Virus record (IMG/VR): IMGVR_UViG_3300026512_000006
Coordinates: 64,001-102,191 of that record
Direction: 5' to 3' (one strand)
Length of the DNA stretch: 38,191 bases
Source of the DNA: a virus
Below the pieces are notes generated by a model. That model saw only the letters and a program-made list of their open reading frames with translations, had not been told where the DNA came from and ran no database searches. The position numbers and the translations under genes are program-made. Numbering within the stretch: position 1 is the stretch's first letter; every line of letters starts with the position of its first letter. Of the stretch, positions 8,977 through 34,758 are shown in pieces.

Positions 8977-9291
8977 TTAATCGAACAAACTATCAAATTT
9001 TTCAGCCATTGTGGCATATTTGTCTTGTTCTTTATTAGTGCAGGTACTATCTGCATCTTTTTTTTGTTCAAATACTTTGATTGGAAACCATATTAAGTAG
9101 AGACTTATTAAGGTCGAACCAGCAGTCGCTGATACAACTCCAAGTATTGAACCACCAAATATACTGTTCAGTAAAATTAACATTAATATGTCAACTCCTA
9201 CGTCAGCGTATTTCCCTTTATTCCATTTTATACGTAGTATTATGAAGTTAAATAGAACGGCTAGCCCTAAGGCTATTACCATTGCTCCCAT
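8977..9291 (-). CDS. small membrane protein (104 aa)
   Basis: Two or three hydrophobic segments: residues 1-19 (MGAMVIALGLAVLFNFIIL), about 31-54 (VGVDILMLILL onward through NSIFGGSILGVV) and 57-71 (GSTLISLYLIWFPIK), followed by a charged tail of about 33 residues. The short charged loop RIKWNKGKYAD separates the first two. Ribosome binding site GGAGGTG overlaps the end of the PhoH-like gene (TAATG). Function unknown; similar small membrane proteins are common in phage early/middle regions. It could be a holin-like or inner-membrane effector, but no lysis gene is adjacent. Confidence 0.65.
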   Translation of the reverse strand: MGAMVIALGLAVLFNFIILRIKWNKGKYADVGVDILMLILLNSIFGGSILGVVSATAGSTLISLYLIWFPIKVFEQKKDADSTCTNKEQDKYATMAEKFDSLFD

Positions 9292-10397
9292 TACACCTCC
9301 TTTGAGAATAGCTTTTCAGCGTACTCCGCAAAGTTAGATCGTACAACTCGTTGAAGAGGTACTACGTGTTTGTTCACACCATTGCCTAGTATCGTAGCAC
9401 AATCATTAAGTATTACACTAAGTCCATTTGTGAATTTAGTCATATTAGGATTATCTATTTGGTTGTTAGAGCCTACTAGTATTATCTTACAGTTCTTACC
9501 GAATCTGGTTAATACTTTTTGTAGGGAACTCTTAGACATCCCTTGGACTTCATCTATAATAACTACAGTGTCTGTAAATGTTCTACCGCGCATGCCGAGA
9601 CCTGTAAGGGCCTCGATGTTACAGTCTTGTACTATTTTTTCCATCTGTGTTTCTACTTTTTCTTCTAGTTCTCTACCTTTCGCTTTACCGCCTTTTAGGC
9701 GATTACGAACAATAAAGTCTAAAGAATCGTAGAGGGGGTGGAAATAGATTAAGTTCTTTTCATCTGCAGAGTTATGGGTAGGTATGTAATTATCTGTCAA
9801 GTATAAGTGGTCAGAAGAGTCTAGTGTAATACACTTAACAGCTTCTACCCCGATATGCTCAATAGCGGCAATACTTAGTCTACTGTTTTCAATGTACCTG
9901 TGATTAGCTGCTTTACGCGGTATTGATGCTAAATTAAATTCACATCTCTTAATACGTACTTCGTAAGAGATATGGTTACAATTAGTTTCAATTCCTTTAA
10001 TTTTAAGAGCTCCCATACGATCTCTTGTGGATACTGTAGTATACGCACCTAAAGACTTAGATACCTCCACTACATCCATAGCCAACTGGTGTGAGGATGT
10101 ATAAAACATTACTTCACCAGAAGGTCTTATAGAGCCATCAGTGTCAATCAGTCCTTGTAGAAGTGCTACTCGTTGTGCAATAGATCTAAATTTAAAATCG
10201 TTAGGGATATACTTCTCATAAGATCTCTTACCTTTTAAGCCTATGCTTTCAAGTTCGTTAAGGCCTGACTTTTTAGAGTCTAGTTCGTCAATTACTGTTT
10301 CTGCTATACACACTATAGTGTCTTTTTCTTGCCTTAGCGCAATTATGTGATTAGCGTCAAGTAATGGTATATTAGTGTCTATACATAAGTATTTCAT
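9291..10397 (-). CDS. phoH: PIN-PhoH hybrid with in-frame internal deletion and intein remnant
   Basis: An apparently damaged PhoH2-type gene. Residues 1-50 are the start of a PIN nuclease domain (CIDTN, then IDELDSKKSGLNELE). Residues 51-209 are the C-terminal part of an intein: homing-endonuclease motif LLQGLIDTDGSI (79-90) and splicing blocks ending CITLDSSDHLYL...YIPTHN followed by Ser210. From 210 on it is PhoH ATPase: ADEK...HPLYDSLDF, Walker B VVIIDEVQG (278-286), then LVGSNNQID and VPLQRVVRSNF. Missing are the rest of PIN, the PhoH Walker A loop and the N-terminal intein blocks, so neither splicing nor normal ATP binding is expected. The fusion keeps one open frame of 368 codons. It is coupled to neighbours by TAATG overlaps. 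Confidence 0.8.
   Translation of the reverse strand: MKYLCIDTNIPLLDANHIIALRQEKDTIVCIAETVIDELDSKKSGLNELESIGLKGKRSYEKYIPNDFKFRSIAQRVALLQGLIDTDGSIRPSGEVMFYTSSHQLAMDVVEVSKSLGAYTTVSTRDRMGALKIKGIETNCNHISYEVRIKRCEFNLASIPRKAANHRYIENSRLSIAAIEHIGVEAVKCITLDSSDHLYLTDNYIPTHNSADEKNLIYFHPLYDSLDFIVRNRLKGGKAKGRELEEKVETQMEKIVQDCNIEALTGLGMRGRTFTDTVVIIDEVQGMSKSSLQKVLTRFGKNCKIILVGSNNQIDNPNMTKFTNGLSVILNDCATILGNGVNKHVVPLQRVVRSNFAEYAEKLFSKEV
9771..10247 (-). mobile_element. C-terminal intein fragment with LAGLIDADG endonuclease motif
   Basis: Corresponds to residues about 51-209 of the PhoH hybrid. GLIDTDG is one LAGLIDADG motif. The C-terminal splicing region ends in His-Asn followed by Ser, as required at an intein/C-extein junction. 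The N-terminal nucleophile block and the preceding intein half are absent. The insertion point, just before ADEK...PLYD, is a conserved PhoH position. The left edge is approximate. Confidence 0.75.
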
Positions 10398-18009: not shown

Positions 18010-18400
18010 CGTTATATTCAGTAAGAGTCGTTACATCTTACCCGCGGCATTACCCGCAGCTATATATCACTATATAGACTAGACTATATCTTATACTATT
18101 GTAGGTATATTTCCTACTATAAGTCCTTTATACTTGCCTTTTGTTATAGGCCTTATTGTCATTTACTACATATAGAACTTAATTTAGTATTTTCCTGTTT
18201 CCACCCACTTGAGTGTACTCCGATGTCTCGGATAGTCGTTGAACCCGTACCTACACGGTACTCGGCTGCTGATTGTCTTATAAGTATAAATTGTTAAACA
18301 TTCATACACTGCTTTCGCGTGTGTTGTAGTTTTATACCCTTCAAGAGATTCCAGCAATTAAGGAAATTATCGTAGTGGTAACTACGCAGCTATTTTATTA
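18010..18400 (-). ncRNA. group I intron (391 nt) in the ATPase gene
   Basis: On the minus strand the core R element (GTTCAACGACTATC, complement of 18231-18244) and S element (AAGATATAGTC, complement of 18082-18092) are present and pair as P7. The 5' exon ends in T (18401) and the intron ends in G (18010), as required. The IGS GCUG pairs with exon CGGU. Removal keeps frame and restores one protein. No endonuclease gene fits inside. Its sequence resembles the MoxR intron at 34263-34758. Confidence 0.88.
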
Positions 18401-18873
18401 ACCGACATCCATGACCCAGCTTTACCGAATTGTCCAGTTGCCGGAATAATATGACGAGCTGTATCTGCATCAAATACTGTGTGAGCTACAATTATTACAT
18501 TTACACCATTGGCTATTAGAACATCTTCGATGTATGCATTTAGATTTAGAGTGTCTCTATTATTATTCTTATGAATATCAAAACCTTTAAAGGCGTTGTC
18601 ATTAAATGCTTGCATTGTGCTATAAAATTGAGTTACAGTGTCTAAAACAACAGTATCGGGTAATTTACCAAAGCGTTCTTTGTATGCTCCAAGTTTCTCA
18701 TTAATAGTATCAATTAAAGCATCAATACCGTGGTACTCTGTAATGTTTACATGAGGTACAGAAAACCCGTATTCTTTTCTATCAAAGTTTATTACTAGTG
18801 CATTGTGAATTTTAGCAGCTAAGGTAGACTTACCTGTATTCTCAAAACCACTGATTAATAGTTTTATTGCCAT
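18401..18873 (-). CDS. RecA-like P-loop ATPase, exon 1 (N4 gp44-like)
   Basis: First exon of a 220-residue ATPase. Walker A SGFENTGKST (8-17), Walker B DTVVLDTVTQF around residue 73, then NGVNVIIVAHTVFD and TGQFGKAGSWMSV, the order of the phage AAA_24/RecA-like proteins that often sit beside SSB and a RecB-like nuclease. Likely role: ATP-driven step in replication or recombination; N4 gp44 has the same neighbourhood. Without splicing, translation would end in the intron after NKIAA. The start follows AAAGGAGCCAAT, directly behind a small hairpin. Confidence 0.82.
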
Positions 18874-27530: not shown

Positions 27531-28241
27531 TTAATGGCACCCATACCATGAATTATCAATAGTGTATGTATTACCTTTTTTATCTCTAGCTTTGGAGTAA
27601 CCTCCTATGAGGACTTCTCCAGTATACTCACATTTCATTCCTAGATGGTCTGATACTTTTTTATAAGTAGTTTGCAGGATGTCTGCTATCTCATGTATTT
27701 TGTCATTGCGTACTATGAGGTCTACTTCATCGTAGATGCAGGCTTCTTGTTTAAAGTGTATACCATTTACTAATCCTCTACGTTTAGTTTCCTCATGGAA
27801 GAATACGAGGTAGTGCTTCATAGCTTCTGCACCCATTCCTTGTAGTTGAGAGTTAAGGGTAGCATGAGCGTGACGTATAGGTACTCTACGGCCACCAAGC
27901 ATAGTTACATAGCCATCTTGTTGAGCTTGAGCTGTAAGGTCTGCTATGAGCTCTTTAAGGCCTATTGTAGAGGCAATTAGGTCTCTTTGTACTTTAGCTC
28001 CAAAGAGAGCTTGTACTACAAGATGTTTGTTGAATGGTACTAATGCGTCTTTTTTAATTGGATAGAACTCTTTACCATCTACTTCAATTATTCTACGTTT
28101 TAATTTTTTCTCCATAGCTTTAAATTCTTTGTCGGTGTAATCTGCAAAGAAGCCATGTTTAAGTAGTGTGTACCCTGTAAGGGTAGGTGAAGATCCGTAT
28201 AAAACATTATCTTCGTATAGGTGTGTTAGACCTATACCGTT
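27531..28241 (-). CDS. family A DNA polymerase, C-terminal exon
   Basis: Last coding segment of the replicative DNA polymerase. The frame opens after the intron with NGIGLTHLYEDNVLYG (after motif B), then GGRRVPIRHAHATLNSQLQG and CIYDEVDLIV, motif C with its catalytic Asp (usual HDE replaced by YDE). It ends in DNSWYGCH. Without splicing the first ATG is at 28115 but has no role on its own. The exact 5' edge is uncertain: the T/G rule for group I introns gives Asn where motif B usually has Tyr. Confidence 0.85.
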   Translation of the reverse strand, partial: NGIGLTHLYEDNVLYGSSPTLTGYTLLKHGFFADYTDKEFKAMEKKLKRRIIEVDGKEFYPIKKDALVPFNKHLVVQALFGAKVQRDLIASTIGLKELIADLTAQAQQDGYVTMLGGRRVPIRHAHATLNSQLQGMGAEAMKHYLVFFHEETKRRGLVNGIHFKQEACIYDEVDLIVRNDKIHEIADILQTTYKKVSDHLGMKCEYTGEVLIGGYSKARDKKGNTYTIDNSWYGCH

Positions 28242-28607: not shown

Positions 28608-28910
28608 AGTTAACCCAAACCATAAGGGTTTTGCGTCGTTGCGGCTTATATTACAGGCTTTAGCATTTAAAGAATGCAGGTCAGTACCTTTGTCTTTATC
28701 GCCAGAGGCGATAATACTAGCTAAGCGTCCGTTGTCGTAGGGGTATAGCATTTCAGCTAAGTTTACATTCTCCTGACCAGAAAAATCTGTTTAAGTTCCA
28801 ACAAAGGACCAGGATTCTTTTCTGGCTTTGTTGGATAACTCCTTTATAAGACGTTCTGGTACTGTAGGATTAGTTAAAATATTACGATACTGTTGGTCTG
28901 TTATTTTCAT
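28608..28910 (-). CDS. DNA polymerase middle segment with in-frame TAA before motif A
   Basis: Starts MKITDQQYRNILTNPTVPER after AAAGGAATTTC, overlapping the endonuclease gene by 29 bases. It reads to SWSFVGT, then TAA (28793-28791), then ACA, then DFSGQENVNLAEMLYPYDN and on to RNDAKPLWFGLT at the intron. VG-x-DFSG is catalytic motif A of family A polymerases; the canonical spacing is regained if the six bases TAAACA are skipped. Since ACT and ACA are both Thr codons, a tRNA-Thr hop over the stop would give exactly FVGT-DFSG. Otherwise the stop inactivates the gene or is a sequence error. Confidence 0.8.
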
Positions 28911-29598
28911 GAAATTCCTTTACAGTGTTACACATTAGTTGTGAGCAATTAATTGTACGTAGTTCAGTATTTCCGCCGTGTGTAAGGATATTTTTTCCCA
29001 TGTACTTATGCTCTTTTGTATGTAGAAGTAATAGTTTTTCTATATCATAAGCATCTTCACCGTTAATGAACCAATGCTCTTGTAGTATCTCAACTATATT
29101 TCCATCTTTTATGTCTTTACAATATCGTGCCTCTACTCCTATTTTAGTTATACCTATTTTGTATACGCACTTATTGACTTTTACTAAATATAAAGCCGCA
29201 GGGGCATTTTTATATAATGACCTATTCCAGCCTCTTTTAATAGAGGCACATTCAGGGCAGCCTTTACCTTGGAGATGATTATTAGGAGTAATAGCGAAAT
29301 TACCATGGTACTTACAGGTTACATTTAATTTTTTATTAGCTCGTTCGTAGCTGCTATCATTATAAATATAAGTACCCTTATGCATAATTTCTGCTTTTTT
29401 AATAAATTCTGAGGTAGTAGTAGTTTTTCCTTTAGTTACCTTTTTAAACCCCCTGCATGTTCTGCATAATGGGTTCTCTATTAACTTACTGTCTATCCTC
29501 ATTTCTTCTTCTAAATTGCATTTAGTACACCTGCCCAATACAAAATGGCGGTTACGCGTACCTACTTTTTTTAATCCCAAATCTTTTACTATTTCCAT
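28882..29598 (-). CDS. GIY-YIG-type homing endonuclease splitting the polymerase gene
   Basis: 238 residues. N terminus with zinc-type pairs (GRCTKCN, CRTCRG), a DUF723-like repeat (KLNVTCKYHGNFAITPNNHL then GKGCPECA), and a C-terminal GIY-YIG-like core ALYLVKVNKCVYKIGIT...R. Such proteins are homing endonucleases. It has its own ribosome binding site (AAAAGGATTATAA) and stands between the polymerase segments, whose edges have their own stop and start. The preceding 153 bases (29599-29751) contain a GGGC-TTACT...AGTAA-GCCC hairpin but no group I core, so it looks free-standing rather than intronic. Confidence 0.8.
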   Translation of the reverse strand: MEIVKDLGLKKVGTRNRHFVLGRCTKCNLEEEMRIDSKLIENPLCRTCRGFKKVTKGKTTTTSEFIKKAEIMHKGTYIYNDSSYERANKKLNVTCKYHGNFAITPNNHLQGKGCPECASIKRGWNRSLYKNAPAALYLVKVNKCVYKIGITKIGVEARYCKDIKDGNIVEILQEHWFINGEDAYDIEKLLLLHTKEHKYMGKNILTHGGNTELRTINCSQLMCNTVKEFHENNRPTVS

Positions 29599-29751: not shown

Positions 29752-30309
29752 TTAGGCATACTTAGTAAGCTCCGCATATAGCTCATCACTAATATGGTAG
29801 TAAGTAGGAGCTCTAAATAGTTCTCTAAATTCTCTCTGAGAGGGAATTTGAGCTAGATTAGGACTTGAGCTAGTGAACCTACCTGTAACTGTTCCACAGG
29901 TATCCACTCTACCGTGGATACAATTAGTAGTTTCATTGTAATGATTTATTAGGGAACCATCTGCTCCACCGACTTGTGATTGATCTTTGGCTACTTTTAA
30001 GTAACGCTTTAAGAGTTTTCCTGCTGGATGTTCCATATGTTCTAATGAATCTACATCAACCTTCACGCCTCCTTTAGGAGTGTAGTAAGGGAATCTATAA
30101 CCATAATCTTCTTCCATCCACTTACGTATGTGATTACGAGAACCAGGGTTGAAAGGTGTGAACTTAATTGGTTGATAGTCTCCGTAGCGAGTTACTATTA
30201 TAGTACGCATAGGTTTGTCGAACCATTTATAAGTTTTAGCTGATTTCATTTTAAACTTACCATTTTTTAGGTATTTACTGTTAGGTATTTTATAAGGGCT
30301 TAAGGGCAT
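29752..30309 (-). CDS. family A DNA polymerase, N-terminal segment (no exonuclease domain)
   Basis: 185 residues starting MPLSPYKIPNSKYLKNGKFK after AAAGGATATAT, with a -10 promoter upstream. It contains FNPGSRNHI, YTPKGGVKVD, then VTGRFTSSSPNLAQIPS and REFRELF, the polymerase thumb/palm entry. It stops after ELTKYA; the next segment MKITDQQ continues the same polymerase. The 3'-5' exonuclease region expected before this point in N4- and T7-type enzymes is absent, so the exonuclease is lost or encoded elsewhere. Whether the pieces assemble into an active enzyme, as known for split phage polymerases and split NrdA, is inference. Confidence 0.85.
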   Translation of the reverse strand: MPLSPYKIPNSKYLKNGKFKMKSAKTYKWFDKPMRTIIVTRYGDYQPIKFTPFNPGSRNHIRKWMEEDYGYRFPYYTPKGGVKVDVDSLEHMEHPAGKLLKRYLKVAKDQSQVGGADGSLINHYNETTNCIHGRVDTCGTVTGRFTSSSPNLAQIPSQREFRELFRAPTYYHISDELYAELTKYA

Positions 30310-34262: not shown

Positions 34263-34758
34263 CGCGTATATTCAGTACAAGGCGTTAACTTGTACCCGCA
34301 GCATTACCTGCAGCTAGTACTCTCGTACTAGGCTAGACTATATCTTCAGCTTTGTTTTTTAACTTTCTAGAGTTTGAAAATTTCTGTGTTTACCATTGTA
34401 CTTCCTTAAATTAGATAAGTAAGTATACTGATAAACCTGTTAAAGTTAATTTAAAGCTGTCCCCCATTTCCACTCACTTGAGTGTACGAGCTTGTGCTCT
34501 AGTCGTTGAACCTTCTCCTGTACGGAGCTTGGCTGCTGATTGTCTCTATCATTTATTTGTCAAACCTTCAGTATCTGCTTTCGTGATACTTGTGGTATAA
34601 ATGCTTATCAAGAGTTCCCAGCAATTAAAGGGATTTGCGTATACACATTACTGTGTATAGGGGCTATAACTAGTTAAGGTTTGTCTGTACTATTTAAAAC
34701 TATCGTTTGTTTATTATCATCATAATAAATAGTAGTGTGTATGCCTTAGTAGTAGTTA
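34263..34758 (-). ncRNA. group I intron (about 496 nt) in the MoxR gene
   Basis: R (GTTCAACGACTA) and S (AAGATATAGTC) elements are present on the minus strand, with further blocks shared with the ATPase intron at 18010-18400, such as the complements of CACTTGAGTGTAC, GGCTGCTGATTGTCT and CAGCAATTAA. Exon 1 ends TCGGGT and the intron ends CGCG; removal gives EELSG-IPDFID in frame. The 3' edge could lie 2 bases away with a one-base shift at the 5' edge. No endonuclease gene inside. Confidence 0.85.

Follow-up and report, generated by a model that had tools for sequence, protein, structure and literature searches.

How could a phage make an intact DNA polymerase from a gene that is split into pieces and carries an in-phase stop codon directly before the catalytic aspartate of motif A? 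The locus lies in a 38,191-nucleotide stretch of viral DNA, here called the window, which takes up bases 64001-102191 of a virus record 102,191 bases long. The same arrangement, with stop inserts of its own, is present in two more viruses, and ribosomes therefore probably skip the stop. Our main reading, to which we assign a probability of roughly 0.6, is that a mobile endonuclease and a stop insert form a cassette within the polymerase gene, and that the stop would be crossed by a ribosome hop of 5-6 nt. This bypass reading draws on three cases: the window and two viral contigs, L008 (IMGVR 3300026533_000003) and L094 (3300026382_000013).

Results

A T7-like family A DNA polymerase is encoded in pieces on the minus strand of the window. 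Motifs A, B and C of the family are present (Pfam PF00476), and the T7 DNA polymerase profile is matched at 5.1e-39. A Foldseek search with a predicted model of the unsplit relative L007 likewise points to T7 polymerase (1.9e-16). In this model the motif A aspartate (D177) would end a strand formed by residues 171-177, and the split point (168/169) would just precede that strand. The gene and its surroundings comprise the following features:

29752-30309 (minus): polymerase N-terminal half; Pfam DNA_pol_A, 1.8e-14
28882-29598 (minus): free-standing homing-endonuclease-like gene; PHROG 681 endonuclease, 1.2e-29
28791-28910 (minus): start of the C-terminal half (short ORF); ATG, 39 codons, in-phase TAA
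28797-28835 (minus): RNA hairpin of 14 bp with one 2-nt bulge; 3' arm ends directly before ACT
28794-28796 (minus): putative take-off codon ACT (Thr), from the sequence
28788-28793 (minus): insert TAAACA, the in-phase stop TAA plus the putative landing codon ACA; missing in 11 unsplit relatives
28613-28787 (minus): motif A (DFSGQENVNLAE...) to the start of motif B (...AKPLWFG); 10 synonymous and 0 non-synonymous differences from L008 in the first 12 codons
28205-28612 (minus): group I intron of 408 nt in the same gene; Rfam RF00028, 63.6 bits (gathering threshold 50)
27531-28204 (minus): last polymerase exon, with the end of motif B and motif C (YDEVD); Pfam DNA_pol_A, 80% identical to L005

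In the N-terminal half, polymerase homology stops at ...FRELFRAP (base 29806), and the frame continues into an added tail, TYYHISDELYAELTKYA, and a stop. The short ORF has its own ATG at 28910, preceded 4 nt upstream by AAAGGAA, and its 39 codons read MKITDQQYRNILTNPTVPERLIKELSNKARKESWSFVGT. Each half would be translated on its own and bears an added tail, and we infer that the resulting polypeptides join to form a single enzyme.

The minus strand from 28796 to 28785 reads ACT TAA ACA GAT, with TAA at 28793-28791 and ACA at 28790-28788. GAT TTT TCT GGT, encoding DFSG, begins at 28787, directly past TAAACA. The sequence-only reading of this DNA had described six extra bases before motif A, and their position is exact to the base (minus strand, 28793-28788). 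It had also proposed that their removal restores the family A spacing; this holds, as the resulting VG-T-DFSGQEN matches the unsplit relatives, which read WSFLGTDFSGQEN in L005, WSFIGTDFSGQEN in L006 and L007, and generally FVGTDFSG, FIGTDFSG or similar. What that reading had missed are the ATG and AAAGGAA of the short ORF, the endonuclease gene between the halves and the 408-nt group I intron. Removal of the intron (junction GGGU/UAAC...AUAAUG/UUUU) restores the frame and an exact FGFLYGSS, and the spliced product, ...AKPLWFGFLYGSSPTLTG..., is identical to that of the relatives. Given this exact restoration, the downstream intron is an ordinary one, separate from the stop insert.

L008 and L094 share the split and have N-terminal-half tails homologous to that of the window (CYYYVPDSLYKQALSMLAV in L008 and IMYTIPDKLYYELMETLC in L094, each followed by a stop), whereas unsplit relatives have no tail. 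In L008, the N-terminal half with its tail and stop is followed by an orthologous endonuclease and by the short ORF MKLTEQEYNQLLANP...WVFVGTDFS, which runs into TGACT; past it, the sequence continues in another frame as GGACAAGAA (GQE). The insert, TCC/TGACT/GGA, places an in-phase stop at motif A (FVGTDFS TGACT GQEN). An uninterrupted 736-aa frame considered for this gene is contradicted by its DNA. In L094, the tail APIMYTIPDKLYYELMETLC and its stop are followed by two unrelated small ORFs and the short ORF MKTITKDLYEIFLAKPNIPEDLKKELTDKAHESQWVFIGS, after which TAACT precedes GAT TTC TCA GGA (DFSG). Here too the insert, TCC/TAACT/GAT, creates an in-phase stop at motif A (FIGS TAACT DFSGQEN). 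L094 belongs to a separate branch and has a longer N-terminal half that resembles exonuclease-fused polymerases. The short ORFs of the window, L008 and L094 comprise 39, 42 and 40 codons, have the same N-terminal peptide and all begin with AAAGGAA, 4 nt and ATG. Only skips of +6 in the window and of +5 in both L094 and L008 keep the invariant VG-x-D and D-x4-E spacing.

In-phase stop inserts are thus found in 3 of the 3 genes with this form of split, versus none of the 11 unsplit relatives (L003-L007, L021, L090-L093 and L100); if phylogeny is ignored, the probability of this distribution arising by chance is 1/364. In the comparison with related phages proposed in the sequence-only reading, the six bases are absent from all 11 unsplit genes and have equivalents, TGACT and TAACT, in L008 and L094. 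Judged by these three sequences, the insert is recurrent, and very probably neither an error nor an isolated oddity. In our estimate, it is quite likely that these genes carry a cassette whose stop insert is non-random.

In trees, the window groups with L008 on the N-terminal part (87/90) and with L005 on the C-terminal part (91/94). L094 pairs with L100, and the three split genes do not group together. Given this separation, the trait has either arisen or been transferred on several occasions, or has undergone several losses. Together with the homologous tails, the trees give the pattern expected if a cassette moved horizontally with its flanks, which may be what happened; repeated loss may account for it as well. 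The tail peptide has no real match in INPHARED. Query A3 found no match in genome contigs, and a DNA pattern gave one chance match (L104).

The protein encoded between the halves appears to contain treble-clef zinc fingers and a GIY-YIG-superfamily (T5orf172/MUG113-like) C-terminal domain. Its Pfam matches (DUF4379, MUG113 and T5orf172) are weak, each under the curated cut-off, and a fold search with a model of the protein gave no significant match. The L008 orthologue occupies the same site and is 46% identical. The L094 record contains no such endonuclease, yet keeps the stop insert; the gene was lost from, or is absent in, L094. Its place is taken by two unrelated small ORFs (L094:2820-3357) that have a common C-terminal end, FKHKLL followed by a stop, and no convincing family match. 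As a query against the viral contigs, the endonuclease of the window found no match. A two-sequence profile identified 37 loci in these contigs, among which only that of L008 adjoins this polymerase. Ten matches to this endonuclease family occur in the 111-kb record of L003 (IMGVR 3300023238_000006), where the polymerase is unsplit.

We also considered whether the endonuclease region is itself a group I intron. Rfam RF00028 has no match around the gene in the window (the only hit is 28551-28255), and in L008 the endonuclease start follows the stop of the N-terminal half at a distance of just 6 nt, which leaves no room for an intron. The suggestion that an excised mobile element left the six bases behind as a scar is borne out in that a mobile element is involved, but not in its excision: the endonuclease gene is still there, approximately 90 nt upstream of the insert. 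The insert is probably a companion of this gene.

Between the window and L008, the polymerase proteins, the remainder of the C-terminal half included, are 71-85% identical and third positions are near saturation. As dS was saturated, codon-position counts were used in its place. Across the 12 codons past the insert, the window and L008 are separated by 10 synonymous differences and no non-synonymous one; in L008, the initial three of the 12 directly precede its own insert. In the comparison with L094, the same codons show 7 synonymous differences and 1 non-synonymous difference. Strong selection at the protein level acts on the codons just past the stop.

No possible start codon is found between TAA and the motif A aspartate of the window, and the sole in-frame start-type codon of L008 (CTG) lies past the aspartate. 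Neither gene can give a product with an intact motif A unless the stop is crossed. L094 has an ATG in the frame of the C-terminal half, out of frame with the short ORF (MGIYWVLTDFSG), and so L094 alone could avoid recoding. A second PolA copy was not found in the window, L008 or L094 records; another intact polymerase gene had been named in the sequence-only reading as evidence that would speak against a bypass. PolB and PolIII alpha are likewise not found in the window and L008 records; any of these three records may be incomplete.

The RNA directly ahead of the stop can fold into a stable hairpin. In the window its energy is -17.0 kcal/mol (z -4.8, within the lowest 0.1% of 45-nt windows), and the equivalents reach -16.9 kcal/mol in L094 (z -3.8) and -18.6 kcal/mol in L008 (z -4.0). 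All three lie in the lowest 0.1-0.26% among equal windows of their own sequence, have 13-16 bp, and have a 3' arm that ends 2-4 nt before the stop. The insert of L008 is located 9 nt further downstream, and the base of its hairpin is shifted along with it. Five unsplit relatives have no equivalent hairpin (z +0.9 to -1.7). Equally stable folds were reached by 3 (window), 35 (L094) and 3 (L008) per 5000 synonymous recodings, for window lengths that were picked after the folds had been seen; among 70 control windows from genes of the window, 2 have a similar synonymous z, near -4. The region just 3' of the stop folds no better than shuffled sequence, and no take-off or 3' stem-loop is found. By analogy with T4 gene 60, the positions of the hairpins would be suited to aid forward sliding.

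Discussion

In the bypass that we propose, a mobile homing endonuclease gene would have invaded the polymerase gene and thereby divided it. A second, tiny insert in the cassette would then have placed an in-phase stop in the DNA encoding catalytic motif A, where it probably shields its own gene copy from the endonuclease. Termination at this stop would not be universal. The peptidyl-tRNA would release ACU, slide 6 nt over UAAACA and re-pair with ACA, and translation would resume at GAU to give FVGT-DFSG. The hairpin, re-forming behind the ribosome, would favour a forward move, perhaps together with the 39-residue nascent peptide, and the hop would presumably be in the forward direction.

The tiny programmed bypass put forward in the sequence-only reading is the best-supported account of the locus, given the recurrent architecture, the selection, the lack of another polymerase and the hairpin; the crossing itself is deduced from these features. 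Re-pairing of tRNA-Thr, as it had been envisaged, suits the window (ACU to ACA) but lacks support as a general rule, since in L008 and L094 the tRNA would leave UCC and land on ACU. For the window, landing and take-off codons share 2 of 3 letters; for L008 and for L094 they share only 1 of 3. This poor pairing in L008 and L094 is the weakest point of the hop reading. On balance, we consider it rather probable that ribosomes hop over the stop insert.

Outside yeast mitochondria, no programmed bypass other than that of T4 gene 60 is, to our knowledge, well proven. The origin of bypass elements is debated. The T4 insert, at the TOPRIM motif, reportedly blocks cleavage by MobA, a finding attributed to Bonocora et al. 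in 2011. In T4, the topoisomerase gene is split by the mobA endonuclease gene; gene 60, which begins at a start of its own, runs for 46 codons to a stop and a 50-nt gap, and roughly every second ribosome bypasses this gap (PMC3014915, PMC11194080). Refolding of the mRNA behind the ribosome aids forward sliding (PMC11194080), and a T4 study by Herr et al. (2004, cited in PMC3014915) indicates by its title that minimal pairing can suffice. The likenesses are several. As with mobA and gene 60, a gene essential to DNA metabolism is divided by an endonuclease gene (in the window and L008), the part downstream is equipped with a start of its own, and a second insert sets an in-phase stop approximately 40-46 codons into it (here 39, 42 and 40). 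A 5' stem-loop also lies ahead of the take-off codon, and the insert is missing in unsplit relatives (PMC3014915, PMC5009743, PMC11194080). In contrast to T4, the gap is 5-6 nt rather than 50 nt, the gene encodes a DNA polymerase rather than a topoisomerase, and the endonuclease is GIY-YIG-like rather than HNH. The take-off and landing codons match weakly in two of the three cases, a take-off or 3' stem-loop is lacking, and bypass is here read from sequence comparison.

The nine nucleotides ACU UAA ACA of the window, which would give one amino acid, resemble the synthetic stop-hops of Weiss et al. (1987), made constructs in which a stop is flanked by like codons, as summarized in PMC5009743. 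According to the same 2016 review, a natural in-frame stop-hop was not known. Division of an essential enzyme by endonuclease insertion is shared with Aeh1 nrdA/mobE and with the split gene 43 of Aeromonas phages, in which two polypeptides assemble (PMC2988022); unlike the genes studied here, these are not described as having a stop insert in the downstream half in the available text of that article. The cultured, infectious OM43 phages MEP401 and MEP402 also have a split PolA, in which an intron was suspected by the authors (PMC10580990). In MEP401 (L109:6111-8221) and MEP402 (L110:6651-8762), a 77-aa ORF splits PolA just before motif A, at the same spot as in the window. The ORF between the halves is different, and the C-terminal half is intact from motif A (MILNADAK) and has no stop insert. 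MEP401 and MEP402 establish that a PolA split at this spot is viable.

The inserts vary in sequence and position, as expected of repair scars, and the TGACT of L008 duplicates a neighbouring TGACT. Combined with an adjoining endonuclease in two of the three cases, this could mean that the endonuclease cuts motif A, error-prone repair inserts bases, and a dead or dying polymerase is replaced by that of the host, with no bypass at all. We regard such scars as unlikely, since the C-terminal part is intact and conserved at the protein level despite saturated silent sites, and the small ORF, its SD and the tails are conserved. Moreover, L094 keeps its insert with no such endonuclease in its record, and scars are never seen in the unsplit relatives. 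An assembly or sequencing error, also raised in the sequence-only reading, would fit the apparent internal deletion of the window's phoH gene. It is nevertheless very unlikely, as L008 and L094 carry similar inserts at the same motif within a homologous architecture.

All three genes leave a frame that continues as (L/X)-T and then native sequence, so that UAA read-through in the window and a frameshift of -1 or +2 in the other two genes could yield a polymerase with one or two extra residues. This kind of recoding seems quite improbable to us: the extra residues would sit beside the catalytic aspartate or within D-x4-E, where spacings are invariant among relatives, a slippery site is lacking, and no tRNA gene, hence no suppressor tRNA, was found in the record of the window. 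Alternatively, translation of the C-terminal half could begin internally, and a polymerase working in pieces would then need no crossing of the stop. The ATG of L094 would permit this, and in MEP401 and MEP402 the C-terminal half begins right at the corresponding split. We give this option very little weight, because the motif A aspartate is unreachable in the window, with no start between TAA and GAT, and in L008 it sits on the short ORF only.

If a mobile cassette with a ribosome hop is indeed present, the locus would represent a repeatedly used means of self-protection for selfish DNA, seen in three homologous split genes of different phage lineages, two of them with an endonuclease. Its gap of 5-6 nt would be the smallest natural ribosome hop available for study, and the stop-hop would occur where the active site of an essential enzyme is encoded. 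There is perhaps an even chance that this is an independently evolved second kind of endonuclease and bypass cassette, moving between phage polymerase genes, and the first natural stop-hop. Genes with such stops are easily mistaken for broken ones.

The phage is intron-rich. Further group I introns are located in an AAA ATPase gene (34314-34686, minus strand) and a RecA-like gene (approximately 18060-18410, minus strand), and another lies outside the window (G000:C1:20108-20414). In the phoH-like gene (9291-10397, minus strand), one continuous frame links the start of a PIN domain with two C-terminal segments, half of a LAGLIDADG intein and part of PhoH; a large internal deletion seems to have taken place.
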